A stretch of 43,072 nt of DNA from the NCBI GenBank assembly GCA_017456145.1, contig JAFTJZ010000074.1, positions 1 through 43,072 on the forward strand. Direction: 5' to 3'. The notes beneath the pieces were generated by a model that was not told the origin of the DNA, did no database searches, and saw only the letters and a list, made by a program, of their open reading frames with translations. How positions within the stretch are numbered: position 1 is the stretch's first letter; the number at the start of each line of letters is the position of its first letter. Of the stretch, positions 11,320 through 43,072 are shown one piece after another. The position numbers and the translations under genes were made by a program. The stretch is from Clostridia bacterium (lineage in GTDB: Bacteria; Bacillota; Clostridia; Oscillospirales; CAG-272).

Positions 11320-11354
11320 AATTAAATTCTTGATGCTTATCATGACGGGAGGTA

Positions 11355-13215: not shown

Positions 13216-13240
13216 AAAATACAGTAACAATCCGACAAAA

Positions 13241-13279: not shown

Positions 13280-13361
13280 TATAACATATATTTCATTTTT
13301 ATGAAACAATCGGCGTCTCTCATCTGTTATATTAAGTAGACATAATCAAGGAGGAAATACC

Positions 13362-14528: not shown

Positions 14529-14541
14529 TTCGGAGGAAATC

Positions 14542-26959: not shown

Positions 26960-27985
26960 TTACAGCATGGCAAATGCTTTGATACCGCATTCGCAAAGCG
27001 CGTGATCCTCCTCACCGGTGCCACCGGAGATGCCCAAGCCACCGACGATGGTATCCCCCACCTTGAGCGGAACACCGCCGCCGAAACAAACCATCTTGTC
27101 TACGTTCTGTAAGCCGTAGAAGGTTTGACCGGGCTGCACCAGATCGTACAGATCCTTGGTCGGCATTTTAACCGAAACAGCTGTGTACGCCTTCTTGATA
27201 GCTACGTCATAGCTGACCAAAAAAGCACCATCCATGACATGAACCGCAATGGGGTTGCCCTCACTGTTACAAACGGCAATGACCGCCTGTTTGCCCATCG
27301 CTTTGGCGCACTTTTCAACCTCTTCGATCAATCTGGTCGCCTTGGCAAGATCCAGCGGACGTGCATCAGCTACACGGCGCAGCACCTCTTCGACGATATT
27401 GTTAACTGCACCGTCGGGGGAGCTACCGGTCGCTGCGGGCATCGACTTACCCTCGCGACGAGCAGCCTCATCATAATCTGCCTTGCGCGCCAGCATATAC
27501 AGATAATCCGAAAGACGATTGAGATATGCCTTGGCAGGTGCTGCCGCCGCATATTTTCGGTCCATGACGGCAAGTGTACGCTCTGCACGGCGGGCGATCG
27601 TCCGCGCTACATCAAGACGCGCGGAAAGCTCACAATAACCGGGCAGGATAAACTTGCGCTCACGGGGGAAGGAGTCCTCTACCGTGTCAATAATATATTC
27701 CAGAAATGCCGTTTCTTCCTCGGTGACGGTATGTTTTTTGTTTCTTGGATCGGCAACACCGGCCATGATGGTCATAAGGACATTCTGCACGCGGTCAAAG
27801 TGAGCGATGCAGGTCGCACTGTCTGCCGTATTCATAGATGCAATGTATGCCTTGGCGAGTCCCATTTGTGAGGTCAACTCGTCAATGGTGCCCAGCGCAT
27901 TGATGCGCTCGTCTGCCTTGGAGATCTGCGTTGCAGACATCAGCGTCGTCATGCCGCCGTCTCCGTGTTTGGTGTAGATTTTCAT
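26960..27985 (-). CDS. pduO: PduO-type cob(I)alamin adenosyltransferase fused to GlcG domain
   Basis: The 341-residue protein has two parts. Residues 1 to about 185 are the PduO ATP:corrinoid adenosyltransferase: MKIYTKHGDGGMTTLM, ADERINALGTIDELTSQMG, and IARRAERTLAVMDR with the conserved RRAER. Residues about 205-341 are a GlcG/HbpS (DUF336) domain with a GGVPLKVG and GLGISGGTGEEDHAL end, as in full-length PduO, where it binds heme or cobalamin. The enzyme makes adenosylcobalamin, the cofactor of the dehydratase encoded upstream in the same operon. The ATG at 27985 has AAAGG upstream. It is the last gene before the terminator at 26921-26952. Confidence 0.93.
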   Translation of the reverse strand: MKIYTKHGDGGMTTLMSATQISKADERINALGTIDELTSQMGLAKAYIASMNTADSATCIAHFDRVQNVLMTIMAGVADPRNKKHTVTEEETAFLEYIIDTVEDSFPRERKFILPGYCELSARLDVARTIARRAERTLAVMDRKYAAAAPAKAYLNRLSDYLYMLARKADYDEAARREGKSMPAATGSSPDGAVNNIVEEVLRRVADARPLDLAKATRLIEEVEKCAKAMGKQAVIAVCNSEGNPIAVHVMDGAFLVSYDVAIKKAYTAVSVKMPTKDLYDLVQPGQTFYGLQNVDKMVCFGGGVPLKVGDTIVGGLGISGGTGEEDHALCECGIKAFAML

Positions 27986-28036
27986 TCTCGTGCCTTTCTT
28001 TTTGCGTTAAAGGTCAGTTCGTTAATCAGTTTTCGT

Positions 28037-28393
28037 TTACTCAGGTAAGCGGAGGGGGAGTCGCTTGATCACCCTTGCGCCGTTGGCGCCAAGTGCGCGT
28101 GCGGTCGTCATATCCGGGGCGGTATGAGAGAGCAGGGTAGTCATCTCATTTTCACCGTGACGGATGTTCATGCCCTTGATGTGCAGCGACACATCGTCAC
28201 CGCAAAGACCGATGCCCACGCCCAGCATGGATGCCTCGCAAGCTTTGACGGAGAGAGCAGAGGCCGTGCCTTCCTTGTCGCTCATGATCTCATAGAGAAT
28301 GCCTTCCTCTTCAATACCGGCGCAAATCTCACGGAGCAGCTGCATATCTCCCCGACAAGTATTTATAATAATGGTTGGTTTCTTTACGATCAT
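28037..28393 (-). CDS. pduH: diol dehydratase reactivase small subunit
   Basis: The 118-residue protein has the fold of the small reactivase subunit (PduH/DdrB/DhaG), which resembles the dehydratase beta subunit: IEEEGILYEI, GVGIGLCGDDVSLHIKGM and a C-terminal ARALGANGARVIKRLPL. With the large subunit it exchanges damaged cobalamin for fresh adenosylcobalamin on the inactivated dehydratase. Its ATG overlaps the stop of the large reactivase gene by 4 bases. The pduO gene follows after about 50 bases. Confidence 0.9.
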   Translation of the reverse strand: MIVKKPTIIINTCRGDMQLLREICAGIEEEGILYEIMSDKEGTASALSVKACEASMLGVGIGLCGDDVSLHIKGMNIRHGENEMTTLLSHTAPDMTTARALGANGARVIKRLPLRLPE

Positions 28394-30210
28394 ACGTTGC
28401 CCCCGTTCATTGCCGACAAGACAAGGCCTGTTGCCACTGCATTACGGGGACCCTCGCTGCCGCGGATATTGCCTCGTCCGCAAACAATGCGGAAGGATGC
28501 AAATTCTTCCATCAGCATCTCTGGGATCTCAAAATCCTCCGCCGAGCCGCCGACCAGAACGACGTTGGGAATGCGGCGGAGCTCGCCGGAAGGAGCGATT
28601 TGCTTGAGCGCACGCAGGGCATTGGTGACAAATACCTTGCGCTTTGCCTCACGGCGCACCTGGACAATTTTTTCCATCGGGATATCCTCGTCGATGCGAA
28701 TCATGCCTTCCGGACTCATCAGCACGACGTGCCCAAAAAGCCGCGGATCGATCGAGCCGTCAAAAAATTGCATCTCACCGCTCTCCAGACGCAGGTGGAA
28801 CAAGCTCTCCACCTTGGCAAGCGGATACTTTTTGATCTGTTCTGCCGTGGTGCGCGCACCAAGACCCAGCTCGGTCTGAATCAGCATGGAGACCAGCTCA
28901 CCGGCCCCTGCACAGTGGGTCAGGCTCACACGTCCGTCCTCATCAATCAATGCGGCGTCGGTCGATCCGCCACCCATATCAAGAATGGCAAGAGGTACTC
29001 GCGTACCCGGCGTGGTCAGTGCGCCGAGCGACGCCATGACAGCCTCCACACCTGCGATCACAACGTTGGTGCGAAGATCTGCTGTGAGTGCATCGGCAAT
29101 CTGCTGCATGGGGAGCTGGCGGGTGCGGACCATGGCCGCAATGCCGACTGCCTTTTCCATGCAGGTCTCGCCTGCCAGTGCGCCGGCAATGGCAACGGGT
29201 GCTAAGGTGTCTACGGCAAGGATATCGGTGATGCGAACATCGCCGGCATACTCACCGCTGACAGAGGCCATTCCCTCGCGAATGCGGGAGAGCATTTGCC
29301 CTACATTGGTGCCGCTTTGCCCTTGAATATTATGAATCTCGCCGCACTGCGCCATCGACTGCATGATGGCCTCTGCTCCCTCGTCAATGCTGACGGAGGA
29401 GGGAATAGCTGCCTCAAAGGTGAGTGCGCCTGCGGGTAGAATGTTTTCCTGTATGTTGCCACCCGGGGTTTTTATAACCACGGCGCTACGCTTACCGATC
29501 AGACTCTTGGCGATCGGTGTAACGCTCTTGGTGGCTGCCGCGTCCAGCGACAGTAGAGTAGCAATTCCGTAGGGGTTACTCAGCATCCGAACGGATTGCC
29601 CGGGCAGCGCGACCTCTATGGCGGCTGTCTTACCCTCCGGAATTCGTTCGATGTGACGTACCTCGTCGATGATGGGGATTTTGGTTTGTAATCGGTTTTC
29701 AACCAGCACGGCCTCGTCTGCCTGCATGATCACGCCGCAAATGTTTCTTTGCTGCGCGACGCGATTGATCCTCTCAGCGGCGACTTCATAACCGATCGTG
29801 CGGGGGACGGTGACAAGGTATGCCACGCCGGCGCGCGTGAAGTCAAGACGATCAAAAGAGACGATCTCTCCCACCGCCGTTCCCGCACCCGCAGGGGTGG
29901 AGGGATTGTGTCCAATCATGGAGGATTCCGTGATAATGGTCTCCGTGATGGTTTCCATCGCTGTGTCGCCAATGACGGGCGCCGCCTCGTTGATGCGGAT
30001 AACGGAAAGCTCGCTCATCTCGCGCCCTGCCGCATTGACGGCCGCCTTAAGTGCCGCCTTAATGCCGTGCACGTTTGGCAGCGTACCCTTGGTTCCCGTG
30101 GTGGGGCGGAGAGCGGAGGCAAGGAAGGTCATACGACCATCCTCCATGCGTTGTCCGATACAAACCTCTGTGGTGGAATTGCCAATATCAACACCGGCAA
30201 TCAATTTCAC
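28390..30210 (-). CDS. pduG: diol dehydratase reactivase large subunit
   Basis: The 606-residue ATPase of the actin/Hsp70 superfamily starts MKLIAGVDIGNSTTEV with the phosphate-binding motif. Later regions include VPLAILDMGGGSTDAALID and NVVLVGGSAEDFEIPEM, as in DdrA/PduG/DhaF (usually 605-610 residues). It drives release of inactive cobalamin from the dehydratase using ATP. The start is GTG at 30210, overlapping the small-subunit stop as GTGA. Its own stop overlaps the pduH ATG. All reactivase genes are thus translationally coupled to the enzyme genes. Confidence 0.95.
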   Translation of the reverse strand: MKLIAGVDIGNSTTEVCIGQRMEDGRMTFLASALRPTTGTKGTLPNVHGIKAALKAAVNAAGREMSELSVIRINEAAPVIGDTAMETITETIITESSMIGHNPSTPAGAGTAVGEIVSFDRLDFTRAGVAYLVTVPRTIGYEVAAERINRVAQQRNICGVIMQADEAVLVENRLQTKIPIIDEVRHIERIPEGKTAAIEVALPGQSVRMLSNPYGIATLLSLDAAATKSVTPIAKSLIGKRSAVVIKTPGGNIQENILPAGALTFEAAIPSSVSIDEGAEAIMQSMAQCGEIHNIQGQSGTNVGQMLSRIREGMASVSGEYAGDVRITDILAVDTLAPVAIAGALAGETCMEKAVGIAAMVRTRQLPMQQIADALTADLRTNVVIAGVEAVMASLGALTTPGTRVPLAILDMGGGSTDAALIDEDGRVSLTHCAGAGELVSMLIQTELGLGARTTAEQIKKYPLAKVESLFHLRLESGEMQFFDGSIDPRLFGHVVLMSPEGMIRIDEDIPMEKIVQVRREAKRKVFVTNALRALKQIAPSGELRRIPNVVLVGGSAEDFEIPEMLMEEFASFRIVCGRGNIRGSEGPRNAVATGLVLSAMNGGNV

Positions 30211-30599
30211 AAAAGGATTCCTCTCTTTTCATAAATGTCAGCTGCCTCGCGTACCATTTTTGCGCAGCTTTTGGCGTGATACTTGGTTTCAAGCTCAGCT
30301 GCCATATCAAGCAGCTGCGTTTTGGTTGCGCGGTTGGGACGCAGTAGGTTGTACATGGACAGGATCACGTCGTCCGGGACATCTACCAGCTCAGCGGCGC
30401 GCTCAAAGTTCTTTTCCATGGCGGGACTGTCTGCCTCCTTGGCGACCTGACCCTGCTTGCGCAGCATCTCCTTGGAAATTTTAATGTCTTCGCCGGAAAT
30501 GTCGCCGCGCTTGACGGCCTCCAGCGTAATGTCGTCCAGCTTTTTGCCCGTCTTGGACGTGATGGACGAACGCTCGTTTTCACCTAAAGGATATTTCAT
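30207..30599 (-). CDS. pduE: diol/glycerol dehydratase small (gamma) subunit
   Basis: The 130-residue protein contains the gamma-subunit signature regions: LDDITLEAVKRGDISGEDIK, an AEDIYEKR-like end (REAADIYEKRGIL) and LLRPNRATKTQLL. An in-frame TTG lies three codons upstream directly against AAGGAA; the ATG at 30599 has proper spacing from that site. It shows no extra N-terminal targeting helix; it begins immediately with MKYPLGENERSSI. It is separated from the medium-subunit gene by a REP-like hairpin element. Confidence 0.92.
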   Translation of the reverse strand: MKYPLGENERSSITSKTGKKLDDITLEAVKRGDISGEDIKISKEMLRKQGQVAKEADSPAMEKNFERAAELVDVPDDVILSMYNLLRPNRATKTQLLDMAAELETKYHAKSCAKMVREAADIYEKRGILL

Positions 30600-30620
30600 A
30601 ACAATCAATTCCTTGTTTTG

Positions 30621-30694
30621 AAGTTTTTGAAGATTCCAAAGAAACTTTTTTCAAAAAATTTCTTTGGTGGGGCGCGGGGCAACGCCCCACGTAC
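30621..30694. repeat. REP-like double-hairpin element between pduD and pduE
   Basis: Two adjacent hairpins fill the gap: CCAAAGAAA (30636-30644) with TTTCTTTGG (30659-30667), and GTGGGGCG (30667-30674) with CGCCCCAC (30683-30690). A trailing AAGTTTTTGAAGATT is part of the unit. I recall near-identical units scattered in other clostridial genomes, so this is probably a dispersed intergenic repeat inserted inside the operon. Copy number in this genome cannot be seen here. Confidence 0.7.
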
Positions 30695-30703
30695 TATCCC
30701 CCG

Positions 30704-31810
30704 TTACTGCATCGGCCAAGCGATGATGGGGTAGTTCGGATCAACCTGCTCGGTCTCGGCAATGTGCATGATAGCCGCCTTAACCTGATATTTGGCACGA
30801 CACATGGGGTCATTGACACTGGAAATGGGCGTGACCTGCTCGCCTTTGGCGTATTTCGCTGCATTCTGCCCGATCTTTCTGTATGTTTCAAGATTCATCA
30901 GCGGGGCCTGCGGGAACAACTCCAGATTGGACAGCGGGTAAAGATCCTTTTGGTGAATGACCGCCGTACCCTTGGACTGCAGCCCGATACCGATACCGGA
31001 TCCACTGATCTTTGCAGCCTCCAGCCCCATAAAACAAACGTCGGATGTTTTGAGCACCTTGACAACGCGGGGAACCATGCCTTCTTCCTCAATGCCTGCC
31101 TTGACCTCTCGGATCACTTCCTCAAGCGGGATTCCGCAAATGGTAGCGCGAATTTCCTTTTGGAACCCGGGACCGACACCGATGACGACCTCCTTGGGAT
31201 CGGTGCCCTTCTGTGCCAGAGGTGCGCGGCTGTAATCAGTCTTTTCGGGATTGATGCGCTCGGTGCCGACCATCGATGCAGGACGGCGGGATGCGCTCGG
31301 TGCGGATACAGTTTCGGTGGTATTGGATTGTGTGGCCTCGGCCGGACGCAACGCCGAGAGAACCTTCTGGATCATCTCAGCAGGAACGACACCGTCAAGC
31401 TCGGCGGATTCCTTGAGCACCGCCTCGGTAACCAGCTTGGCTACGTTCATATCTACACTCACACCGCGCTCTTTCATAATGGCGCTGTCGTTCGTGACAG
31501 CAGGGACGGGAACAACGCTCTCCCCCTGCAGTGCACCGATCACCTTCTGCACCATTTCTTCGGGATTTACTCCTTCCAGCTCCTCGGATTCCTTGATCAC
31601 CGCCGCTGCGATCTTGCGTACGGTGTCCTCGGTCACCTTGATCCCCTTATGGGAAACGACTTCGGCAATTCCGCAATACGAACGGGGCTTTTCCTCTCTG
31701 AGGTAGCCTGCAACCTCGCGCAGCATCTGTTCCGGCTGTACACCGTCAAGCTGTGCGGATTCTTCTACGATCGCCTGCGCGATCTGTTTCATAATATCTT
31801 CATTCAGCAT
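30704..31810 (-). CDS. pduD: diol/glycerol dehydratase medium (beta) subunit with triple N-terminal repeat
   Basis: The C-terminal 165 or so residues match the beta subunit (VVIGVGPGFQKEI, GIEEEGMVPRVVKVLKTSDV, SGSGIGIGLQSKGTAVIHQ, PLSNLELFPQAPLMNLETYR). The normal subunit is about 224 residues; this one is 368. The extra N-terminus holds three copies of a helical repeat at about 5-37, 61-95 and 121-155, of the form xxVxKIxxAVxKESxELxGVxPEEMxxKVxxAL, joined by linkers. Single amphipathic helices of this kind on PduD direct it into microcompartments. The ATG at 31810 has AGGAAA; upstream in-frame starts at 31834 and beyond are less likely. The start differs from the large-subunit stop by 35 bases. 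Confidence 0.93.
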   Translation of the reverse strand: MLNEDIMKQIAQAIVEESAQLDGVQPEQMLREVAGYLREEKPRSYCGIAEVVSHKGIKVTEDTVRKIAAAVIKESEELEGVNPEEMVQKVIGALQGESVVPVPAVTNDSAIMKERGVSVDMNVAKLVTEAVLKESAELDGVVPAEMIQKVLSALRPAEATQSNTTETVSAPSASRRPASMVGTERINPEKTDYSRAPLAQKGTDPKEVVIGVGPGFQKEIRATICGIPLEEVIREVKAGIEEEGMVPRVVKVLKTSDVCFMGLEAAKISGSGIGIGLQSKGTAVIHQKDLYPLSNLELFPQAPLMNLETYRKIGQNAAKYAKGEQVTPISSVNDPMCRAKYQVKAAIMHIAETEQVDPNYPIIAWPMQ

Positions 31811-31845
31811 ATGTATTTCCTGCCTTTTGCTCATAACAATTCTAA

Positions 31846-33510
31846 TCAAAGATTTTTGGGATCGATACGGTGCGGGATATCCTTGATCTCCTCCCAGCGC
31901 TCACCATCAAGACGGTAACCTGTACCCGGACCTGCGTAGGTGTTGGGCGTATTGACAGCGCTGAGTACGCGGTAATCCTTATCAAGAATGGCAGAGGTCT
32001 GCATATAGTCACCAATAACGCGCTGCTTGAGCATATTCAGAATACGCTCGGCGATCTCCTCGTGACCGGTCTCAGCAAGTGCACGGCAAACATCAATGCC
32101 CGTAATGCCACGCTTGAGCACGTCTTCTGCCGCCAGAAGATCTGCGGGAACATCGCGATCCAGTGTGTCCTTGGAGCCGTGTGCATAAACAACAGCCTCG
32201 ACCTGCTCGTCCGTGATCTCGGTCAAGCCAAGATAAGAGAAGACCGATTGAATTGCCTTGGCAGCCTTGCGGCGAACGGCGATAACGTCCTCTTCCAGAA
32301 CAGGGCGAAGGCCACCGTCTACCATCAGGTCGCGCTGCAGGACGTTGTAATCGTCAAAGTCTTCGGCATCAAAGTTTGAGCCGGCGAACATATTATCATA
32401 ATTGGGCTCTGCGGCATATCCGGAGAAAATGAAGTCGGTACCGGGCATCAGCTCGATCAGCGTACGTGCGGTACGACGGGCTGCAGAGTTGGAAAAACTC
32501 TGGTCGTTACCGGAGGCACACTCCAGTCCCAGCAGCGTAGCGGCAAGGTTCTCGCCAAGCACCTCGCGGATACCGGAGGGAACCGACGCAGGAACGGCGA
32601 TGCAGCTGATAGCTCCGTTCTGCGTACCCTGAGCACCTGCGCCCTTGGTAACGTACAAACAGCGACACTCAAGATAAAGCATCGACTTTTTCTCGCTGTA
32701 ACCCATCAGCACCTCGGAGCCTGCACCTGATGTGAAACGGACCTTCAGACCGCGGGACGCATACGCCGAGTTGAGGAATGCCTTGGAATAGGGCGTATCG
32801 TCGCCGTCAACGAACACCTTTTCGGTTCCGTAGACCGAAACGGTTTCTGCATATGTAGTTAAGCCACGGATCCCCAGATCCAACTCGGTCGCCTCCTCGG
32901 AGGAGCACTGGGTCAACACACCCGGTCTGCCAACCTGCGAGCCGATCAGAATGGCCATGGCGGACAACGGTGCATAACGAGCAATACCCATCGTTGTTTC
33001 TTCCTCAGCAAAGCCGCGAAGAGCACCCTCGGCTGCATCGGCAGCGAGCTGCACGGGGTCATCCTTGAGGTTGGTGATGTGTGCTTGGTTAGAGGGCTTG
33101 AGACGTGCACGCATCTTCTGCATCCCCATCATCAGCTCAACGATGTTCAGATGATTGATAACCTCTGCCATCTTGGCGGGGGTGATGCCGGAGCAAATTT
33201 TTAAGACCTCCTTGCGAGAGACGTTGATATCCACAATCTTACGGGCAATTTCCAAGGAGGGAATAGACATAGAGACGGTCGCACGCTGTAAATTGATGGC
33301 ATAATCTGCGATAAAGGTGTCGATAAAATCAAAATCCTCTCGTTTTTTGCCGTCAAGCTCCGTGACCTTTCCCCCCACAATCTTAATAGAAGGTTTAGGG
33401 TCGTAGGGACTGTTCATGGCTACAAAGCCCATCTCGGGCCATTCACCGATATAACCGTCCAGATTGACAGGACGGGCGTCCAGTGTTTCAAATCGTTTTG
33501 ATCTCTTCAT
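31846..33510 (-). CDS. pduC: B12-dependent diol/glycerol dehydratase large (alpha) subunit
   Basis: The 554-residue TIM-barrel subunit has the same length as the Klebsiella oxytoca enzyme, with a constant +1 offset. Active-site residues are all present: His 144 (QAHITN), Glu 171, Glu 222 (YAETVSVYG), Gln 297 (AQGTQNG) and Asp 336 (SGNDQSF). The enzyme converts 1,2-propanediol or glycerol to propanal or 3-hydroxypropanal by an adenosylcobalamin radical reaction. Sequence alone does not separate the two substrates. ATG at 33510 begins MKRSKRFETLDARPVNLDG, the family's usual start. It is the first gene of the operon, driven from the promoter at 33637-33665. Confidence 0.97.
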   Translation of the reverse strand: MKRSKRFETLDARPVNLDGYIGEWPEMGFVAMNSPYDPKPSIKIVGGKVTELDGKKREDFDFIDTFIADYAINLQRATVSMSIPSLEIARKIVDINVSRKEVLKICSGITPAKMAEVINHLNIVELMMGMQKMRARLKPSNQAHITNLKDDPVQLAADAAEGALRGFAEEETTMGIARYAPLSAMAILIGSQVGRPGVLTQCSSEEATELDLGIRGLTTYAETVSVYGTEKVFVDGDDTPYSKAFLNSAYASRGLKVRFTSGAGSEVLMGYSEKKSMLYLECRCLYVTKGAGAQGTQNGAISCIAVPASVPSGIREVLGENLAATLLGLECASGNDQSFSNSAARRTARTLIELMPGTDFIFSGYAAEPNYDNMFAGSNFDAEDFDDYNVLQRDLMVDGGLRPVLEEDVIAVRRKAAKAIQSVFSYLGLTEITDEQVEAVVYAHGSKDTLDRDVPADLLAAEDVLKRGITGIDVCRALAETGHEEIAERILNMLKQRVIGDYMQTSAILDKDYRVLSAVNTPNTYAGPGTGYRLDGERWEEIKDIPHRIDPKNL

Positions 33511-33636
33511 AGGAGTGTTGATTCCTTTCTTTGCGGATACCGAATTGCCTTACCATACCCGGTATCTCACGTCATTTCTATCCTTATTATTTTGCTATAG
33601 ACACAACTTGCCATTATTTATCTATTATATTACTAT

Positions 33637-33665
33637 ATTATACTACAAGAATGCTCAAAAGTCAA
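33637..33665 (-). promoter_or_regulatory. promoter of the dehydratase operon
   Basis: On the minus strand TTGACT (33665-33660), a 17-base spacer and TATAAT (33642-33637). The leader is about 115 bases and contains a small hairpin (GATACCG/CGGTATC, 33536-33566). I find no cobalamin-riboswitch features in it. Confidence 0.8.
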
Positions 33666-33807
33666 TGATGATTTTAAGAAAAATGATAAATTCTTCGAAT
33701 TTTTTAAGAAATATTCTAACAAAATCGATATGCACGCGCTCGTGTAGCAATCCGCAGTTAAAATTCCCGTTAAATCCGATGTGTTACTACTTTTTCACAA
33801 ACAAATA

Positions 33808-33836
33808 TTGACACGAGAATAAAAATATAGTATAAT
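33808..33836 (+). promoter_or_regulatory. consensus promoter of the DUF4132 operon
   Basis: TTGACA (33808-33813), a 17-base spacer and TATAAT (33831-33836), about 50 bases upstream of the ATG at 33886. The rest of the roughly 375-base divergent gap (33511-33885) contains only this, the dehydratase promoter and AT-rich sequence. Confidence 0.85.
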
Positions 33837-33885
33837 TAAAATATCACATAATGTAGACAACAAAATTCCGTTTTCGGAGGCAAAT

Positions 33886-34326
33886 ATGGATAAAAAAAGC
33901 CAAGGTATCCGCATCTATGTAGCCATCAAACATATGGGGAACATTACCAAGTCCGTGAAGGAATATCCCATCCTTCTCGATCATCACCCGCTTACATTTC
34001 GAGAATTGATCGAAGATATCGTCAAATCTTGCGTCACTGCCTACAAGGAGCGCGCCAATAATGCAAAGATTCCGTCTCCACTGACCGATGAGCAGTGGCA
34101 AGAAATGCAGCAGATCGGAAAATTTGCCTTTGGTGTACATTATAATGAAACCGCAGTTGATTACGACAAAGCGGTCAGCACAGCGATTGAGTCTGTATCT
34201 GACGGGCTTGTTCGGGTATTCAAGGACGGGTACGAGATCACTGACCTTGACAAAGACTTGTGCCTAACCGAAGGAGATGTTCTTACCTTTGTAAGGCTGA
34301 CCATGTTATCCGGAAGAATGTGGTAA
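33886..34326 (+). CDS. putative beta-grasp (ThiS/MoaD/ubiquitin-like) protein
   Basis: The 146-residue protein is not in a family I can name. Its pattern fits a beta-grasp fold with an insertion: strand IRIYVAIKHM (8-17), strand SVKEYPILLD, helix LTFRELIEDIVKSCVTAY (36-53), a helical insertion (about 56-100), then VFKDGYEITDLDKDLCL and TEGDVLTFVRL. The last two resemble the ING-YEI-DLDTPL and EGDEVTF motifs of ThiS/MoaD. The end is LSGRMW, not a free Gly-Gly. It starts behind CGGAGG and is followed 12 bases later by the DUF4132 giant, so the two are surely co-transcribed. The fold is inferred; a scaffold or modifier role would need proof. Confidence 0.7.
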   Translation: MDKKSQGIRIYVAIKHMGNITKSVKEYPILLDHHPLTFRELIEDIVKSCVTAYKERANNAKIPSPLTDEQWQEMQQIGKFAFGVHYNETAVDYDKAVSTAIESVSDGLVRVFKDGYEITDLDKDLCLTEGDVLTFVRLTMLSGRMW

Positions 34327-34338
34327 AGGAGCGTAGCC

Positions 34339-37300
34339 ATGACAGACAAAACCCATACGGAAATTGCAAGAAAAAAAGCACTTGCCGCCGAGTACGCAGA
34401 AAAATTACGTCTGCAAGGGGAAAATCTTCTGAAAAGCCTGACGCGCGCACAATATGATTTTTTAACAAATCGCGCCTCGGCTGACCCGAGTGATCCCCCT
34501 AACACAACGATATACGACGCCCTTGTGCGCGCGATGCGAAAGTCCGAGACAGTACCATCAACATACATATCCCAAGAGCTTTCTTGGCTTTTTCAGGGTG
34601 CACTTGACAAGGGGCAAAGGGAGATCATTTTATATTATGCCGACCGCCTGCAAGAGTATCCTTATTCTCTCTCTCATTATCGCAGATCCTTCCGAGCTGC
34701 TAATAATGCTGCATACACCCAAAAGCTGGTCGCCATGATTCGCGCTTTCGGACGCACCTGCATTGTGGATGCTCCGCTCTATCGTATTCTGAACAGGGAG
34801 CTGCCCGAGGATGTTCAAGCGTATCTTGATGAATACAAATGGATCGGATGTGGCTACGTCAGCTGGCAGGTGGCTTATGCTCTGGATTCCAATGATCCGC
34901 AAGCAGAGGCTGCCATCCGTCGCGTGCTGACCGAGGATACTGCCTCACATATGTTGACCACCGAGCTCATTCGTGGTGTTCTTTGCAGCCATCGCAACGA
35001 TTTTCATGCGCTTGTCGCCAAGCTGCTTGTCGCAGCAAGGCTCGAAGAAGGCCTGCGTCAGGTCATCTGTGAAAATGCAGACTATGGAACGAGAGCAGCT
35101 TTTCTTACCATTCTTCAAGCAATTGAAGAAAATAATCTGATTCGTTATTCCTCCGTCAAGCGTGCAGTCGGCACCTGGCTCGGTATACTTCCCAGCGAGA
35201 TACAGGAGCTTGAGCGTGTCAGCGCCAAGAGCATTCGATTGATTTCAGACTGTCTTGAAAATGAAAACGAGCAAGCAGCGTGTCTTGCATCCGAGGATGC
35301 TATGAGCATCTATATTGCACTTTGGAGCTATGCTTTTGACGATGTCAACATTGCCATCGATAAAATTGCGGGAATTGTCGAAAACGGCTCACATCATCAA
35401 CTCCTTGTTGCAGGATATTTCACGGCAAATATGGATTTACCTTATGCGTCAAATAAAATCGCCAAAAGGGTTTTGCGTTTGCAACACGACAAAGACGATA
35501 TTCTTGCCGTATGGTTGCCCTGCTTTTTACCCAATCGACTATTGGAGCTTCGCAATTCTGTAAATAATCGTCCTTCCTTACAATATGATCCATGGTTTGA
35601 CGGCAAAGACGAGATATGTGAGTATAATGAGATATTCCAATCGATATATTCATCCTTTTCCGGCAATCGTAAAACCTTTTCTCCCTGTGTGTTCCCATGG
35701 CTTGAGGTAAAAATAGAAAAAAGTGATTTAGCAGAAATACTCTGCATACTGGCACTGCTCTCAAAGGAAAACGATAAGCTTGACCGCGCCTGCTCTCTGA
35801 TCAAGCACTGTCATTCTCATCAACGTCATTTGTATTTTTCCGCCCTTCTGCGTCAGCCGCAAACTGCACCGCAGCGAAAGGCATTGCTGGAAGGGCTCAC
35901 CGACAAAGAATCCTATACACGCAAAGCGGCCTTCGATATCATTTCAACGTCAGCATTGACCGATGACGAATATCGATCCATCGAAGAAAATCTTCGTTTC
36001 AAAAGCGCGGATATTCGTAATTATTCCACGACAATTCTGCTGCGTCAGAACGATCACGCACTATTTCTGTGCATTTCCCGCTTGCTTGAGAACGAAAATG
36101 ACAACATTCGTTTTGCTGCACTGGATATGCTGATGCAGCTCAAGCAAGACCCCACGCGAAACAATATTCTATATTCTCTCAGGACAAAGCTTGTGCCGCT
36201 CTCACAATCGCAGGAGCCTGACGAGAGAGGAAAACGGTTGTTGGATTCCTTGCTCGGGGAAGATATGGAAAAAGCAGGGAAGGGAGCTGCGCTCTTCCGC
36301 GAGAAGGATACGTATTTACCAACTCAATTCGATGAAGATAATATCGCTCTTTGCTTAGAGACCTTTTTGGATTATTTTCCCGATTCCAAGCTGCCCGCGC
36401 AGGTTCTCGGCAACAAGGGAAAAATCCATCTGTTTGAAAAGTTGATCTCGACAATCGGTAAAAATGTCGCCTGCAAATCAGCCGTCCAAGCAGCGGAAGA
36501 TCTGCTCTCGCTCTCCGCTTTCATCCAAGCGCACGTGACAGATTCCTTTACCAACCAGCGGGGTGAATCTGTCCTTATCGGCGAACTTCAGTTTCCGCAT
36601 CAATTTCGCGATCATGAGGGAAAACTGCCCCTGCCCGCACTCTGGGATGAATGGATTCAGACAAACGGTATCACCTCGCAGCGACTCGTCCGTGCATTGG
36701 TGTTGCGTTTCGCCTATTCTCAGAAAACCAAATTTGCTGAAGATTGTGCTGACTCCATCCGCGCACTCTACGGAACAGGCTTTGAATGCGGAAGACCGAT
36801 CCCAAATCAAAGATTGGTTAAAATCATTCTTATAAGCTTTTGCAACTACCTCCCCGAGCAGGACCGCATCCGCCTTGCCTCGGCACTTGCGATCTGGTTT
36901 ATCCGTTGCGTTCCCGACCATCTGGTATTGATCGATGCACCGACACCTGAAAAGCTCCCCAGATGCCTTGAGGTGGCACACCTGTTGGCTCATGAACAGC
37001 TTTATTGTATTTTTTCGTGGTTGTCCTGCAACAATGATGAGCAGTTGCCTTATACCTTTCCCCTGGCGGTGGCAGCTGCTGCACGTTGCATTTCCGCATA
37101 CAAACAAATTCCCAAGCCGGAAAGGTTTGAAACCCGTACCTCATACCATTATATGAATATTGATGAGCGTACGCTCCGTCCGCCATACCGCGGTGATTAT
37201 CCGACGGGATATCCCCTTGTTGGCATCAATGCATACCTTTATGCGGCATACCGAGGAATAATCACCGAGCCTGAGCTTTATCGATTTTTACTGCATCCCG

Positions 37301-39585
37301 ACACCCTATGCAAATCCGTCGAGATCGTGAGCGCCATAGCCGCAAATTATTATGATGCAGGTAAGCTGATCACCTCCCACAATCCATATAAAAGTCTGCG
37401 AGCTGCGGATGTCGTTAAGAATTTTCTCGGAAAGACGGAGGAGCCAACCCCTCAGGATATACAGCTGCTTCGTTTCGTCGCACACGTTTACGATACGATC
37501 ATCCCCGCCATTCTCACCTCCGAGCTTTCGCGTGGCGATACTCCGACGGATTATTCTCATGCAATTGGTCGTATCACACGTATTTATGGGGCGGATCATC
37601 TTGCGGACATTCTTGCTGCCTTGGGGAATGAAACACTTGACAGAAATATATGCTCCGGCTACCATAACTACAAGGATCGCGCCGCCTCACTCTCCTATCT
37701 GCTCTCAATCTGTGTTCCCGCAAATGACGATAATGCCGATACTCTTCGTACAGCACTTGCAGGAAAAATGATCACGACCAAGCGTCTGTTCGAGACGGCA
37801 TTGCTCTCTCCTGAGTGGATCCCGATCATCGGTGCATACCTTCAGATTGACGCCTTTGAGTCGGTCTGCTATTATTTTATCGCGCACATGAATGAAGAAT
37901 TCGACGACAAACGCAGAGCGATGATCGCAAGATTTACCCCGCTTACCGAGGATGAATTGAACCACGGTGCGTTTGACGCGAATTGGTTCCGCTCCGCTCA
38001 TCAAATGATCGGAGAGAAGGACTTTTTAATGATATATGATGCCGCGAAATATATTACCAACGGTGCCAAACACACCCGCGCACGAAAATATGCGGATGCA
38101 ACGCTCGGCAAATATACGGAAGAGCAGCTCCGGGCAACGGTGTCAGATAAGAGAAACAAAGATCTGTTGATGGCTTATGCACTCATACCGCTTACGAGCG
38201 ATGACGATCTTTGCAGACGTTATCTCTATATTCAGCAATTCCTCAAAGAAAGCAAGCAGTTCGGTTCCCAGCGCGCCGCAAGTGAGAGTAAGGCTGTCGA
38301 GATGGCACTTCGGAATCTCGCCACAAACGCAGGATATTCCGATACGATGAGACTGACGCTGCGTATGGAGGCCAAGATCATTGATGATCATCGCGCGCTG
38401 CTGGAAGAGCAGAGCATAGAAGATGTCACAGTACGGATTTCTCTGGACAATACAGGGAAGGCCAAACTTGTCTGCTCAAAGGACGATAAGCCTCTTCGAA
38501 GTATTCCCTCAAAGATCAAAAAGCACGATATGCTCATAAAGCTGACCAATCTTGTCAAAACGCTTGACGCACAACACCGTCGCACTCGCGTGATGCTGGA
38601 GCAGTCCATGGAGGACAGCACGGTCTTTACCTTTGGGGAATTATGTGCGCTCGCAACACATCCCGTTGTTTATCCTATGTTGAATAAGCTTATATTTATC
38701 AGTGGAAATGCGGTCGGATTTTTTACCGATACGGGACTTGCCGATGATAAAGGAAATATTCAACCGCTCCCGGCAGATAGCCCCTTGAAAATTGCGCACC
38801 CATATGATCTGTATCAAATGGGGTGCTGGAAGAACTATCAGCAATTTCTGTATGATAAAAAAATCACCCAGCCATATCGTCAGGTATTTCGCGAATTATA
38901 TGTTAAGACAGCGGAGGAGAGTGAAACCTATCACTCCTTGCGGTATGCAGGTAATCAAATTCATCCCGGAAAGACGGTTGCCACCCTCAAGAGCCGCCGT
39001 TGGATCGCAGACATTGAAACAGGACTCCAAAAAGTGTACTACAAGGAAAACATCATAGCAAGAATTTATGCTCTCGGCAACTGGTTTTCTCCCGCGGATA
39101 TTGAATCTCCCACCTTGGAATGGGTTTGCTTTGCCGACAGACAAACCGGGGATGAACGCAAGATCTCCGAGATTCCCGACATCATTTTCTCTGAGGTCAT
39201 GCGAGACGTTGATCTTGCGGTCAGCGTTGCACATGCCGGTGGCGTTGATCCCGAGACAAGCCACTCCACCATGGAAATGCGTGCGACGATCCTTTCCTAT
39301 ATCCTGCCGATGTTCGGCATCGATAACGTCAAGACGGAGGGGCATCACGCGATCATTCACGGAAAAATGGCAAATTATTCGGTTCATCTCGGCAGCGGCG
39401 TTGTTCATCAGCTCGGCGGTACCATGATCCCGGTTCTTCCTGTTCATTCACAGCATAAAGGAAAGATTTTCCTCCCCTTCGTCGATGACGATCCCAAGAC
39501 GGCGGAGATCATTTCCAAGGTTCTTCTGTTTTCTGATGACTGTAAGATCAAGGACCCGATGATACTCTCCTGCATCCGTAACTGA
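34339..39585 (+). CDS. DUF4132 domain giant protein with HEAT-like repeats
   Basis: The 1748-residue cytoplasmic protein has no signal peptide or membrane segment. It is mostly alpha-helical with HEAT-like repeats, clearest near 515-620 (SYTRKAAFDIIS, DNIRFAALDMLMQLK). The DUF4132 region begins at about 1385 (RSIPSKIKKHDMLIKL) and the C-terminus carries the strongly conserved segments VDLAVSVAHAGGVDPETS (about 1625-1640), VHLGSGVVHQLGG (about 1680-1693) and FLPFVDDDPKTAEIISKVLL (about 1711-1730). E. coli relatives include MolR/YehI-type proteins, often fused to WGR domains; their biochemical function is unknown. AAAGGAG precedes the ATG at 34339. A conflict or stress role has been suggested for such families but is not shown. 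Confidence 0.9.
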   Translation: MTDKTHTEIARKKALAAEYAEKLRLQGENLLKSLTRAQYDFLTNRASADPSDPPNTTIYDALVRAMRKSETVPSTYISQELSWLFQGALDKGQREIILYYADRLQEYPYSLSHYRRSFRAANNAAYTQKLVAMIRAFGRTCIVDAPLYRILNRELPEDVQAYLDEYKWIGCGYVSWQVAYALDSNDPQAEAAIRRVLTEDTASHMLTTELIRGVLCSHRNDFHALVAKLLVAARLEEGLRQVICENADYGTRAAFLTILQAIEENNLIRYSSVKRAVGTWLGILPSEIQELERVSAKSIRLISDCLENENEQAACLASEDAMSIYIALWSYAFDDVNIAIDKIAGIVENGSHHQLLVAGYFTANMDLPYASNKIAKRVLRLQHDKDDILAVWLPCFLPNRLLELRNSVNNRPSLQYDPWFDGKDEICEYNEIFQSIYSSFSGNRKTFSPCVFPWLEVKIEKSDLAEILCILALLSKENDKLDRACSLIKHCHSHQRHLYFSALLRQPQTAPQRKALLEGLTDKESYTRKAAFDIISTSALTDDEYRSIEENLRFKSADIRNYSTTILLRQNDHALFLCISRLLENENDNIRFAALDMLMQLKQDPTRNNILYSLRTKLVPLSQSQEPDERGKRLLDSLLGEDMEKAGKGAALFREKDTYLPTQFDEDNIALCLETFLDYFPDSKLPAQVLGNKGKIHLFEKLISTIGKNVACKSAVQAAEDLLSLSAFIQAHVTDSFTNQRGESVLIGELQFPHQFRDHEGKLPLPALWDEWIQTNGITSQRLVRALVLRFAYSQKTKFAEDCADSIRALYGTGFECGRPIPNQRLVKIILISFCNYLPEQDRIRLASALAIWFIRCVPDHLVLIDAPTPEKLPRCLEVAHLLAHEQLYCIFSWLSCNNDEQLPYTFPLAVAAAARCISAYKQIPKPERFETRTSYHYMNIDERTLRPPYRGDYPTGYPLVGINAYLYAAYRGIITEPELYRFLLHPDTLCKSVEIVSAIAANYYDAGKLITSHNPYKSLRAADVVKNFLGKTEEPTPQDIQLLRFVAHVYDTIIPAILTSELSRGDTPTDYSHAIGRITRIYGADHLADILAALGNETLDRNICSGYHNYKDRAASLSYLLSICVPANDDNADTLRTALAGKMITTKRLFETALLSPEWIPIIGAYLQIDAFESVCYYFIAHMNEEFDDKRRAMIARFTPLTEDELNHGAFDANWFRSAHQMIGEKDFLMIYDAAKYITNGAKHTRARKYADATLGKYTEEQLRATVSDKRNKDLLMAYALIPLTSDDDLCRRYLYIQQFLKESKQFGSQRAASESKAVEMALRNLATNAGYSDTMRLTLRMEAKIIDDHRALLEEQSIEDVTVRISLDNTGKAKLVCSKDDKPLRSIPSKIKKHDMLIKLTNLVKTLDAQHRRTRVMLEQSMEDSTVFTFGELCALATHPVVYPMLNKLIFISGNAVGFFTDTGLADDKGNIQPLPADSPLKIAHPYDLYQMGCWKNYQQFLYDKKITQPYRQVFRELYVKTAEESETYHSLRYAGNQIHPGKTVATLKSRRWIADIETGLQKVYYKENIIARIYALGNWFSPADIESPTLEWVCFADRQTGDERKISEIPDIIFSEVMRDVDLAVSVAHAGGVDPETSHSTMEMRATILSYILPMFGIDNVKTEGHHAIIHGKMANYSVHLGSGVVHQLGGTMIPVLPVHSQHKGKIFLPFVDDDPKTAEIISKVLLFSDDCKIKDPMILSCIRN

Positions 39586-39665
39586 TCACACCCACTCCCG
39601 ATATTATTTAGATCAGACATCACGTAGCACCGCTGTAACACGAAGAAAGGAGCGTGAATAAAGAA

Positions 39666-40094
39666 ATGAACCACTTCGGAATGTCCATGCTTTGGTTCTG
39701 GATCAGCTACATATTTGTTACCTGTGCGGGGATGATTCACACCATAATCAATATTTACGTACTTGGGATGAAACCTATGGATGAAAACGGTATGGGTGAA
39801 GGGTATGAAAAAACCAAGCCGTGGCACCCTCTATATAACATCATATCGTTTTCAATCTTTGGATTTGCCTATATGAACGGGCTTACCACACCTACCTTTA
39901 CCGAGGCGCTTATCACGGGTGTGATATGGGTCGGCATCTGTATTGTGGTCGATGTGTTTGCTTGGGTACTGATCAAGCACCCGTGGAGCCTTTCATTTAG
40001 AGAATTTTATATTGATTATCAGCCGTGGATCACACTGATCTATCTTGCAATATTGATCGGACCGTTGATCGGATATTTCATTACGCTTATTTAA
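39666..40094 (+). CDS. small four-helix membrane protein
   Basis: The 142-residue protein has about four transmembrane helices: roughly 6-28, 58-76, 80-102 and 118-140. Conserved-looking stretches are KTKPWHPLYNIISF between helices 1 and 2 and WVLIKHPWSLSFREFYIDYQPW before helix 4. I know similar hypothetical clostridial proteins but no function. AAAGGAG is 13 bases from the ATG at 39666; a GTG at 39654 is too close to that site, so the start is uncertain by four codons. It follows the DUF4132 gene by 80 bases with no promoter or terminator between. Confidence 0.75.
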   Translation: MNHFGMSMLWFWISYIFVTCAGMIHTIINIYVLGMKPMDENGMGEGYEKTKPWHPLYNIISFSIFGFAYMNGLTTPTFTEALITGVIWVGICIVVDVFAWVLIKHPWSLSFREFYIDYQPWITLIYLAILIGPLIGYFITLI

Positions 40095-40159
40095 GAGCAT
40101 ATATCGCTGCATCACCGCCGCCAAACCATGCGGCGACCTACTTGTCAGGAGGTATCACG

Positions 40160-41089
40160 ATGTCCAAATATCCAATTAATAAAGAATTTTTCCCGTTCTC
40201 TCGTTTCACACCGCCCATCAGCGAGAAGTTTTTGGCGATGGCTGTCCCCTACATGAAAGCACCAAGATCCATTTTTCACGATAAGGAGCTTGATGTAAGT
40301 CGCCACAAGCTCGCAAGCTACGACGGTGAGACGATCGAGTGTTTACTTATGTCCCCCAAAAGCATAAAGGGAGATGCGCCTTGCCTCATCTATATCCACG
40401 GTGGTGGATTTGTGCTTCCTGCGGCGGGGTATCACTATCATAACGCCATGCGTTATGCCAAGGAATCGGAGTGCAGAGTTCTCTTTGTCAATTACAGACT
40501 TGCACCAAAGCATCCGCATCCCGTGTTCTTTGAGGACGCTTATGCCGCGTTTTGTTGGGCGTATGATCATGCACAAAATTTGAACATCGACGTATCTCGC
40601 ATCGGCATTGGCGGGGACAGCGCAGGTGCAACACTCGCAGTGGGAGTATGTATGATGGCGCGAGATCGGATGCATCCCGTGAAATTTCTATTTCAGATGC
40701 TGCCGTATCCGTTCCTTGATGCTCGGAACAACAGCGAGTCTTGTAAAAAATACAACGATACGCCCATGTGGAATTCCACGCTCTCAAATCGCATCGCACC
40801 GATGACGAAGGTTGATAGGAACAATCCCAACTACGCTTATTACTCTCCGGTGGAAGCCGGATGCTTTGAGGGACTTCCTCCTGCATATATTGAAACCGCG
40901 GAGTTTGATTGTCTTCACGATGATGGCATCCTATATGCAGAGAAATTGCGCTCTGCGGGGATTGCCGTTGTAGTAAATGAGACCGAAGGCACTATGCACG
41001 GCTTTGACATTATGCAAAAAGCGGAAACCACGAAAGCTGCAATAAAAATGAGAATAGAGTTTATGAAAAGGTGTTTTTCTCACCAATAA
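40160..41089 (+). CDS. alpha/beta hydrolase, hormone-sensitive-lipase family esterase
   Basis: The 309-residue protein has the HSL-family oxyanion motif HGGG (80-83), nucleophile motif GDSAG with Ser 154, and likely catalytic Asp 250 (ETAEFDCLHDDG) and His 280 (TMHGFD). YRLAPKHPHP is the usual segment after the oxyanion loop. No signal peptide is present, so it acts in the cytoplasm on esters such as acylated small molecules or short lipids. The frame is open to 40025, but the ATG at 40160 has AGGAGG 8 bases ahead. A terminator follows at 41135-41163, so it is probably the last gene of the operon starting at 33808. Confidence 0.9.
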   Translation: MSKYPINKEFFPFSRFTPPISEKFLAMAVPYMKAPRSIFHDKELDVSRHKLASYDGETIECLLMSPKSIKGDAPCLIYIHGGGFVLPAAGYHYHNAMRYAKESECRVLFVNYRLAPKHPHPVFFEDAYAAFCWAYDHAQNLNIDVSRIGIGGDSAGATLAVGVCMMARDRMHPVKFLFQMLPYPFLDARNNSESCKKYNDTPMWNSTLSNRIAPMTKVDRNNPNYAYYSPVEAGCFEGLPPAYIETAEFDCLHDDGILYAEKLRSAGIAVVVNETEGTMHGFDIMQKAETTKAAIKMRIEFMKRCFSHQ

Positions 41090-41134
41090 ATTATATTTTA
41101 ATAAAATCATCGGGGATCTGACCGAGCAAGAAGA

Positions 41135-41163
41135 GGGGGCTGCGTTATTCTCAGCCCCTTTTT
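41135..41163 (+). terminator. intrinsic terminator after the esterase gene
   Basis: GGGGCTG (41136-41142), a 9-base loop, CAGCCCC (41152-41158) and TTTTT. Confidence 0.9.
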
Positions 41164-41186
41164 CGATTAAAATTTCTTCTGACTGA

Positions 41187-41215
41187 TTGACAAATCTGAA
41201 AATAAGGTGTATAAT
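41187..41215 (+). promoter_or_regulatory. perfect sigma-A promoter of the LuxR-type gene
   Basis: TTGACA (41187-41192), a 17-base spacer and TATAAT (41210-41215). Operator repeats begin 4 bases after the -10. Confidence 0.88.
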
Positions 41216-41219
41216 ATAC

Positions 41220-41294
41220 TACGCGAAAGCGAACAGTAACACACTTCGCATTTGCGAACGATATTACCATTCGCGAATGCGAACGATAAAACGT
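41220..41294. promoter_or_regulatory. three palindromic operators, 25-bp spacing
   Basis: Three 25-bp units start at 41220, 41245 and 41270. Each opens with a palindrome: TACGCGAAAGCGAA, TTCGCATTTGCGAA and TTCGCGAATGCGAA, then C(A/G)(A/G)T. GCGAAC recurs at 41229, 41254 and 41279, exactly 25 bases apart. They lie between the -10 box and the ribosome site, where bound protein would block transcription. The adjacent regulator is the obvious candidate ligand; this is inference. Confidence 0.8.
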
Positions 41295-41313
41295 CTTCTT
41301 TGAGAGGTTGAAA

Positions 41314-42549
41314 GTGGATTATATAGGCATAAATGAAGCCGCTAACAGATGGGGGCTTTCTAAAAGATTTGTTCAGTTTCTTTGTTCTAACGGGAGAATA
41401 GAAGGTGCAACACGTTTGGGCCGTGCTTGGATGATTCCGAAGGATGCCGCAAAACCTGTTGACGGCAGAACCAAGGCGGCGAGAGCCGAGCATGATGCGG
41501 ATATGCCGCTGCCTCGCAAAACACCGTTTCTTTATATGACCGACCTTTATCACACTCCGGGAACTGCCGATGAGGTAGGCGAAAGTCTTACATACAACCA
41601 CGAAGCGCAGGTGCTCTTTTTAGCTGAGGTTGCCTATTCACGTGGTGAGATCGACAAGGTTTACGACAGCGCAAACTATCTGCTTTCAAAGCACTCCGGC
41701 TTTTACGCCGTCCTTTCCGCGGGTATGCTTCTTGCGATGTGCGCGATATGGAAGGGCGACATTGATATGTGGCGCAAAGCCAAGATTCATATATCCGAAG
41801 CACCCGCTAAAAACGACTATGACCGAGATACGATGCAGCTTGCGATAAGTGCCGTGGATATTATGCTTTACAGCGTGCAAAACTTCCCAAAGTGGTTCCA
41901 GATCGGTTGTTTTGAGCCGTTGCATAAGGATGCTTACCCTGCGGCAAAGGTATATTACGCCAAGTTTTTGTATACCGTAGCGTACTCGGTTGCAACAAAT
42001 GCGTTGAAACTCCCCGGTGCACAGGGGCTCTACGTTATGACCTCCGTGCCCTATACGCTTGAACCGATGATCTGCTGGGCAAACGAGAAAAACACGGTAA
42101 TGTCCGAGATCTATCTGCGCCTTACCTGCGCTGCCGTGTATCATAATGCCGGAAACGATACGGAAGCATTTCGACACATCGACAGAGCCTTAGCACTCGC
42201 TCTCCCCGACAAGTTTTACGGCGTGCTCGCGGAATATTGTCGTGCACTTGACAGCCTCATGGAGAAACGATTAACACTCATCGACGTGAACGCCTGGACG
42301 GAAGTCAAGAAACTCTACAAGGTCTATAACGAGGGCTGGGCAAAGCTCTCGGGAACCGTTCGCGGCAAGACGATTCTGACCACGCTATCCGATAAGGAAC
42401 GCGAGGTAGCTAAGCTCGCCGCCTTCGGCATGGGGAATCAAGAGATCGCAGATAGCCTGCATCTTTCGCTCTCCGTAGTCAAGCAATCGGTGCGGATCGT
42501 ATCCGAAAAATCGGGCTTGCCGCGTTCGAGTTTTGCCGCAATTCTTTGA
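41314..42549 (+). CDS. transcriptional regulator with N-terminal HTH and C-terminal LuxR HTH
   Basis: The 411-residue protein starts MDYIGINEAANRWGLSKR, an excisionase/MerR-like winged helix (1-50: GRIEGATRLGRAWMIPKDA). A middle alpha-helical, TPR-like region (about 80-340) follows, then a LuxR/GerE HTH at the C-terminus (about 352-411: LSDKEREVAKLAAFGMGNQE and IADSLHLSLSVVKQSV). Two DNA-binding domains in one chain are unusual but recur in clostridial genomes. The start is GTG at 41314, six bases after GAGAGG; the TTG at 41308 touches that site. The three palindromic operators upstream suggest autoregulation. Targets are unknown. Confidence 0.85.
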   Translation: MDYIGINEAANRWGLSKRFVQFLCSNGRIEGATRLGRAWMIPKDAAKPVDGRTKAARAEHDADMPLPRKTPFLYMTDLYHTPGTADEVGESLTYNHEAQVLFLAEVAYSRGEIDKVYDSANYLLSKHSGFYAVLSAGMLLAMCAIWKGDIDMWRKAKIHISEAPAKNDYDRDTMQLAISAVDIMLYSVQNFPKWFQIGCFEPLHKDAYPAAKVYYAKFLYTVAYSVATNALKLPGAQGLYVMTSVPYTLEPMICWANEKNTVMSEIYLRLTCAAVYHNAGNDTEAFRHIDRALALALPDKFYGVLAEYCRALDSLMEKRLTLIDVNAWTEVKKLYKVYNEGWAKLSGTVRGKTILTTLSDKEREVAKLAAFGMGNQEIADSLHLSLSVVKQSVRIVSEKSGLPRSSFAAIL

Positions 42550-42550
42550 A

Positions 42551-42587
42551 TTTATATATCTTTTTCACTCCCAAAAGGATATATAAA
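42551..42587 (+). terminator. AT-rich hairpin terminator after the regulator
   Basis: TTTATATATC (42551-42560) pairs with GATATATAAA (42578-42587), extended inward by TTTT/AAAA, followed by TTTTCCTT. A second hairpin ACCTAAAA/TTTTAGGT (42623-42644) lies further on, without a T-run. Confidence 0.65.
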
Positions 42588-42669
42588 TTTTCCTTGGGAA
42601 CCAAAAATGCCCGAAAAAAAAGACCTAAAAAAGTGATTTTAGGTAATACCGCAAACCGAAAAAATCTGC

Positions 42670-42675
42670 TATACT
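42670..42675 (+). promoter_or_regulatory. -10 box for the last gene
   Basis: TATACT lies 58 bases upstream of the ATG at 42733. No convincing -35 is seen 17 bases upstream (TACCGC), so this promoter may need an activator. Confidence 0.4.
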
Positions 42676-42732
42676 ATTATCATCGAGAGTGTGGCAGATT
42701 TTTCTTTTGATGAGATGCCGAAAGGAGCGACT

Positions 42733-43072
42733 ATGTTTCGTAAGATAATTCAGAATGATTACCCACAAGCAAAGGTCATCCCAAAGGAAGGCGATCTATA
42801 CAAGGTCGTAGAAACCTTTGGAAAAACCTTTGAGCTCCGTTACGGTTACTACGGAGATTGTGACCGAAGGTACGAGCCGGATGTGATCTATCCCGACTTT
42901 ACAAAAGACCCCGTATACACCGATGAGGGCACCCCTTTCGTCACAATGATGCAGGATGCTTGCAGGAGCTACAGCGGCGAATCCAAGCGTACCTCCGACA
43001 CCACCTGCGAGGAATGTAAATACTTCAAGCGCGGCGAAGAATGGTTCGGCATCTGCACTTGTACGATGAACA
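42733..43072 (+). CDS. unknown Cys-containing protein, 3' end beyond window
   Basis: An open frame starts at ATG 42733 behind AAAGGAG and runs through the window end (113 codons seen). It begins MFRKIIQNDYPQAKVIPKEG, is polar and soluble, and has KTFELRYGYYGDCDRRYEP, VIYPDFTKDPVYTDEG and a Cys set CEECKYF...GICTC near residues 98-112 that could bind zinc. I recall uncharacterised clostridial homologues but no function. The gene is partial here. Confidence 0.75.
   Translation, partial: MFRKIIQNDYPQAKVIPKEGDLYKVVETFGKTFELRYGYYGDCDRRYEPDVIYPDFTKDPVYTDEGTPFVTMMQDACRSYSGESKRTSDTTCEECKYFKRGEEWFGICTCTMN

Follow-up and report, generated by a model that had tools for sequence, protein, structure and literature searches.

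The window analysed here is a whole contig of 43,072 bases (G000:C58; JAFTJZ010000074.1) from a Clostridia bacterium (assembly GCA_017456145.1). Two adjoining open reading frames (ORFs) on its plus strand, gene 1 (33886..34326, 146 aa) and gene 2 (34339..39585, 1748 aa), form a pair that is conserved in distant bacteria and patchily distributed. Gene 1 encodes a small protein with a predicted ubiquitin-like fold, and gene 2 encodes a giant with the domain order DUF5724-DUF4132-DUF7737. We propose a stress module in which the product of gene 1 serves as a dedicated subunit of the giant and is bound to it non-covalently by way of a C-terminal tail; we give this reading an even chance. The small protein would dock on the giant non-covalently through a face of its beta-grasp fold and through a fixed tail, Leu-x-Gly-Arg-x-Trp-COOH, or Leu-Ala-Gly-Gly in Deinococcus. 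It would act as a subunit or adaptor and not as a classical conjugated modifier, the giant being the scaffold or effector under control. We infer from the comparisons below that the two proteins bind, that the tail docks, that conjugation is absent and that the module serves in stress in the window's species; the pair may represent an unrecognised ubiquitin-like stress module.

Conservation of the gene pair

Gene 1 was found in nine of the 98 genomes of the window's family (its own included), spread over nine of 69 genera, and DUF5724 occurs in the same nine. DUF4132 is present in ten: the nine carriers of the pair and G088, where gene 1 was not found. Because only nine of these ten DUF4132 genomes have gene 1, the small protein goes with the DUF5724 type of protein rather than with DUF4132 as such. 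The DUF4132 protein of G088 (locus L102, contig G088:C54) lies in a 994-aa frame and represents another architecture; the searches of that genome gave no match for DUF5724 or gene 1.

At class level, six of 391 genomes have gene 1 and eight have DUF5724 over the cut-off, namely those six together with G105 and G335. Gene 2 is truncated in G105. In G335 it is interrupted, and the contig breaks off at the start of gene 2 without reaching the place where gene 1 would stand. A ninth genome, G290, has DUF5724 below the cut-off, and in two of the six carriers, G272 and G461, the genes are also broken. Of 299 genomes searched at phylum level, seven have gene 1, and gene 2 adjoins it in each of the six others, being broken in L084 and L088. 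A plasmid collection added the pair in Bacteroides finegoldii and in four Deinococcus records; in Fusobacterium vincentii it yielded a remnant of gene 1 and no gene 2. This remnant (L041, 10001-10078) consists of the final 26 codons and has the usual tail; no open gene 1 and no match to gene 2 were found there.

The window, its family, class and phylum, Bacteroides and Deinococcus together yielded 22 intact pairs. L024 and L020 are one locus and were counted once. Left out were L029 (one in-frame stop in gene 1, and a broken gene 2 cut by the contig end), the Fusobacterium remnant, three loci with a broken gene 2 (L084, L088 and L092), and G461, whose gene 1 is cut after about 80 residues beside a piece of gene 2. 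The broken copies of gene 2 may reflect decay or assembly error. It had been asked from the window alone whether gene 1 always precedes DUF4132. This is the case in 22/22 intact pairs, where gene 1 stands directly before a gene of the DUF5724-DUF4132 type with gaps of -7 to 58 bases. Over the 22 pairs, distances between gene 1 proteins correlate with those between gene 2 proteins (r = 0.92, no control), and shared ancestry could explain all of this correlation. Two of the pair-bearing relatives come from roe deer gut. In B. finegoldii (L038, 5563-13320), a rhomboid protease gene precedes the pair on the same strand and a GAF-domain protein follows it.

The gene 1 protein and its C-terminal tail

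No family in Pfam, NCBIfam or PADLOC was matched by gene 1 above the cut-off, and no PDB relative was found by sequence below E 0.6. The AlphaFold2 model (mf4b7f33e5a49, moderate confidence), compared by VIA-align, predicts a ubiquitin-like beta-grasp with beta-beta-alpha-beta-beta-beta topology. Gene 1 is therefore a predicted member of the ubiquitin-fold superfamily, which bears out its initial description as a beta-grasp protein. It resembles Urm1, MoaD/ThiS and ubiquitin in the predicted fold and in the position of a C-terminal glycine. It differs from them in having additional helices that follow the central helix and precede the last strands (model residues 68-81 and 93-105), in its fixed Arg-x-Trp/Phe end outside Deinococcus, and in matching no sequence family. 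YukD/EsaB of type VII secretion is another small bacterial ubiquitin-fold protein and is thought to act without conjugation; the partner of gene 1 is instead a DUF5724 giant.

The conserved tail of the small protein (residues 137-146, R-L-T-M-L-S-G-R-M-W-COOH) is encoded at 34294..34323 on the plus strand and was delimited from alignments and tail counts. All 18 intact pairs outside Deinococcus end in Gly-Arg-x-Trp (17) or Gly-Arg-x-Phe (1), and the four Deinococcus pairs end in Leu-Thr-Ala-Leu-Ala-Gly-Gly. Gly143 of the window aligns with the first glycine of the Deinococcus di-glycine end and is invariant across the 22 intact pairs. Odd ends (Gly-Arg-Met-Gly; Gly-Ala-Ile-Phe; Gly-Ser-Cys-Phe and longer) were met in L084, L088 and L092, which all have a broken gene 2. 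Because such ends appear in loci with a broken gene 2 and never in the 22 intact pairs, the tail counts suggest that the gene 1 tail is kept on account of gene 2. Odd tails occur in three of five loci with a broken or missing gene 2 and a readable tail, against 0/22 intact pairs (p 0.003, a guide only, as the set was assembled after the odd ends had been seen). L029 and L041 have the usual end although gene 2 is broken or missing.

The predicted fold, the invariant Gly143 and the Gly-Gly with which the Deinococcus relatives end, where the others align with Gly-Arg, would also suit a true ubiquitin-like (Ubl) modifier. An E1 would activate the C-terminal glycine of such a modifier for its attachment to proteins, and the giant would be the ligase, the receptor or the principal target; the Arg-x-Trp end found outside Deinococcus would have to be trimmed first. 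We consider this explanation unlikely. A removable pro-segment would hardly keep Trp or Phe as its last residue in 18/18 cases, and a C-terminal Gly-Gly is present in the four Deinococcus relatives only, the window ending in Gly-Arg-Met-Trp. The conjugation machinery was sought in 12 carriers (Deinococcus genomes not among them). A ThiF-family protein exceeds the cut-off somewhere in 11 of the 12, a point in favor of a modifier; the controls gave 12/14. However, no ThiF gene lies beside the pair in any of the 12, several of which have short contigs there, and none was found over the cut-off anywhere in G007, which is 94% complete. Moreover, for 11 of the 13 ThiF proteins over the cut-off the best match is TcdA, a tRNA enzyme, each of them scoring below the curated cut-off of TcdA. 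The remaining two are a ThiF over its own cut-off (L068) and a ThiF/MoeB-like protein (L056). Prok-JAB was over the cut-off in 0/12 carriers, with two weak matches below it, versus 7/14 controls, other protease families being outside the search. These gene searches speak against conjugation outside Deinococcus, where an E1 encoded away from the pair could nevertheless serve.

It is very unlikely, in our estimate, that gene 1 is a ThiS/MoaD-like sulfur carrier for a cofactor or tRNA with the giant as acceptor enzyme, an arrangement that the old link between DUF4132 and molybdate (MolR) would fit. The ThiS and MoaD families were not matched in the Pfam and NCBIfam scans, and there is no free Gly-Gly end in the window's protein. 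As it stands, the Gly-Arg-x-Trp/Phe end of the 18 intact pairs cannot bear a thiocarboxylate on a terminal glycine, and the lack of ThiF beside the pair weighs in the same direction. In addition, molybdate-metabolism genes are unchanged on DdrO depletion in Deinococcus, according to PMC8533742. A non-covalent subunit held by its tail remains the reading that we prefer.

The DUF5724-DUF4132-DUF7737 giant

Gene 2 is covered by three Pfam families, all scoring above their gathering cut-offs on the plus strand: DUF5724 (residues 57-1343, 34507..38367; 893 bits, E 4.7e-268), DUF4132 (residues 1384-1555, 38488..39003; 142 bits) and DUF7737 (residues 1645-1745, 39271..39573; 114 bits). Few parts of the protein are as well conserved as the DUF7737 domain. 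The giant is probably in part an alpha-solenoid, as judged from the AlphaFold2 model of residues 1040-1748 (mc08d5ca7561a) and VIA-align. It has the DUF4132 domain in common with proteins of the MolR/YehI (WGR-DUF4132) type, and E. coli has DUF4132. Gene 2 differs from that type in that no WGR domain was matched at E up to 1, and DUF5724 is present in 0/14 control genomes. DUF5724 and DUF7737 are not named in the open-licence literature searched, which leaves out most subscription journals, and the passages there that mention DUF4132 give no mechanism for it. A ubiquitin-fold partner with a fixed tail gives the giant a first testable mechanism.

The homologous operon of Deinococcus radiodurans

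In the Deinococcus locus L039, the 20-base DdrO box printed for DRA0165 in PMC8533742 is found at 8716-8735, 82 bases before the annotated start of the gene 1 homologue. Because this box lies before it, the homologue is DRA0165 (SEP068184), and the D. radiodurans pair is drA0165-drA0166. It shares with the window the homologous pair in the same order, and differs in its Gly-Gly end in place of Gly-Arg-x-Trp and in its DdrO box. A DdrO-type box precedes gene 1 in 4/4 Deinococcus loci (three with one mismatch to the printed consensus, one with two) and in 0/21 other loci scanned. PMC9650054 reports no radiation/desiccation response motif (RDRM) upstream of DRA0165, contrary to PMC8533742; the printed box is present in L039.

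This operon has published stress phenotypes. In PMC8533742, it is described as strongly up on DdrO depletion and not up in irradiated irrE mutants, and the V5-tagged DRA0166 protein increases after mitomycin C in the wild type and not in an irrE mutant. DRA0165 is up under H2O2 and gamma rays and binds Trx1 in pull-downs, as reported in PMC9650054; H2O2 survival is higher on its deletion and lower on its overproduction. The same paper calls DRA0165 a Deinococcus-only protein with a conserved C-terminus. This view of a restricted protein needs correction, as relatives occur in the window's lineage and in others. The word "ubiquitin" is absent from the main texts of both papers, and DRA0165 is not named in the beta-grasp surveys PMC1779556 and PMC1949818. 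The identity of the Deinococcus pair connects the window's pair, which is also found in gut bacteria, to a damage-induced operon of a genetically tractable laboratory organism from the radiation-resistant Deinococcus.

D. radiodurans also has a JAMM protease, and the authors of PMC8832034 raised, as speculation, the possibility of a Ubl modification system in this species, which again favors a modifier. In a variant of that idea, which we regard as quite improbable, DRA0165 would be activated at Gly-Gly and attached to proteins upon DNA damage, with the giant as a dedicated ligase or receptor, and other lineages would carry a locked, non-conjugating Gly-Arg-x-Trp version. If DRA0165 were conjugated in this way, the DUF5724 giants would be a new class of ubiquitin-like receptors. 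The switch between Gly-Gly and Gly-Arg-x-Trp within one family would offer a way to test how conjugating and non-conjugating Ubl proteins diverged.

It is also conceivable, but rather unlikely, that the pair works in phage defence or another conflict, with the HEAT-like giant as a sensor or effector that gene 1 keeps in check or arms. The patchy distribution (9/98 genomes, 9/69 genera) would suit this, as would the effects of loss and overproduction on H2O2 survival in Deinococcus. The only PADLOC model matched by gene 2 is HEAT-ARM_XIII, weakly (E 2.4e-4 over 104 residues). In L083 (5584-6597), a divergent gene with a nuclease-like PIN7 domain lies just upstream of the pair. On the other hand, no constant third gene accompanies the pair in the ORF lists (PADLOC was not run on the flanks), searches of phage records and viral contigs did not find gene 1, and, in Deinococcus, regulation by DdrO argues for a connection with DNA damage. 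We retain the non-covalent subunit within a stress module as the preferred reading.

Probable transcription unit and the accompanying genes

In the window, the pair is followed by two further ORFs on the plus strand, gene 3 (39666..40094 from an ATG; alternative GTG start at 39654) and gene 4 (40160..41089 from an ATG, 309 aa). The gaps within the four-gene run are 12, 80 (counted from ATG 39666) and 65 bases. A sigma-70-type promoter, TTGACA-17-TATAAT, precedes gene 1 at 33808..33836 on the plus strand, with 12/12 consensus matches and a 17-base spacer. It is one of two perfect promoters within 33000-43072, where dinucleotide shuffles yield a mean of 0.003 (300 shuffles); the other, at 41187, precedes gene 5. 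An intrinsic terminator, recognised from sequence and fold, follows gene 4 at 41135..41163 on the plus strand. It consists of a hairpin with arms GGGGGCTG/CAGCCCC and a T-run, and the stretch folds to -22.7 kcal/mol. A pattern scan limited to loops of at most 8 bases did not list it, as its loop is longer; the seven terminator-like sites that the scan gave in 33000-43072 are not above shuffles (mean 9.3). The layout described in the first-pass annotation, with a perfect promoter, four co-directional genes, these gaps and a terminator, is thus right in its coordinates. Judged by position, genes 3 and 4 probably belong to the same transcription unit as the pair in the window.

The same annotation had gone further and read the four genes as one multi-component system, in which a ubiquitin-like protein, the giant, a membrane anchor and a hydrolase act together. 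One promoter and one terminator favor this, as does L021, where gene 1 is preceded, on its own strand, by an esterase of 49% identity, with two other frames between them and short gaps. Gene 3 encodes a small protein that is hydrophobic by eye and matches no Pfam family above the cut-off; gene 4 is an Abhydrolase_3 (hormone-sensitive-lipase-like) esterase by Pfam. The flanks of 25 pair-bearing relatives, including the four Deinococcus loci, were searched with tblastn, some flanks being cut by contig ends. In the neighbourhood of the pair, this search recovered gene 3 in 0/25 and gene 4 in 1/25, the latter being L021. In that locus (7060-16435), the pair is part of a longer series of genes in one direction, and the other frames of this series resemble, by eye only, short-chain dehydrogenase/reductase (SDR) enzymes and a nitroreductase.

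A DNA search of five other genomes of the window's genus (the best 40 candidates being scored in four of the five) found nothing that matched the segment with genes 1 and 2. For gene 4, the same search gave matches in two of the five, G778, whose copy shows 75% protein identity, and G031. Gene 1 and DUF5724 were not found by protein search in G031 or G092, and in G031, the dehydratase described below, gene 4 and the regulator gene lie on three different contigs. From the missing linkage in relatives and the presence of gene 4 where the pair is unmatched, it follows that genes 3 and 4 are local company, passengers by position outside the conserved module. We regard joint action of all four genes as extremely improbable. 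Of the stress or conflict role once assigned to them, the stress part has published support in Deinococcus (PMC8533742, PMC9650054), whereas its attribution to a four-gene system does not stand.

Surroundings of the transcription unit

To the left of gene 1, on the minus strand (26960-33510), lies a diol/glycerol dehydratase cluster with large and medium subunits, a reactivase (DDR) and a cobalamin adenosyltransferase with an HbpS-like domain. An intergenic dispersed repeat of about 73 bases is located at 30618-30690 and contains the hairpin CCAAAGAAA...TTTCTTTGG. It matched no Rfam family, and its fold has a z of -2.1. In the window's own genome, the genus DNA search gave 56 matches, 54 of them to this repeat (a single place being matched on both strands in some cases), and the five other genus genomes contain more copies.

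To the right of the terminator, gene 5 (41308-42549) encodes a regulator with an N-terminal excisionase-type HTH_17 domain and a C-terminal LuxR-type GerE domain (Pfam). This gene has its own perfect promoter, the one at 41187. Between promoter and gene, at 41223-41290, are repeated palindrome-like sites, TTCGCATTTGCGAACG and TTCGCGAATGCGAACG, that have the look of operators.

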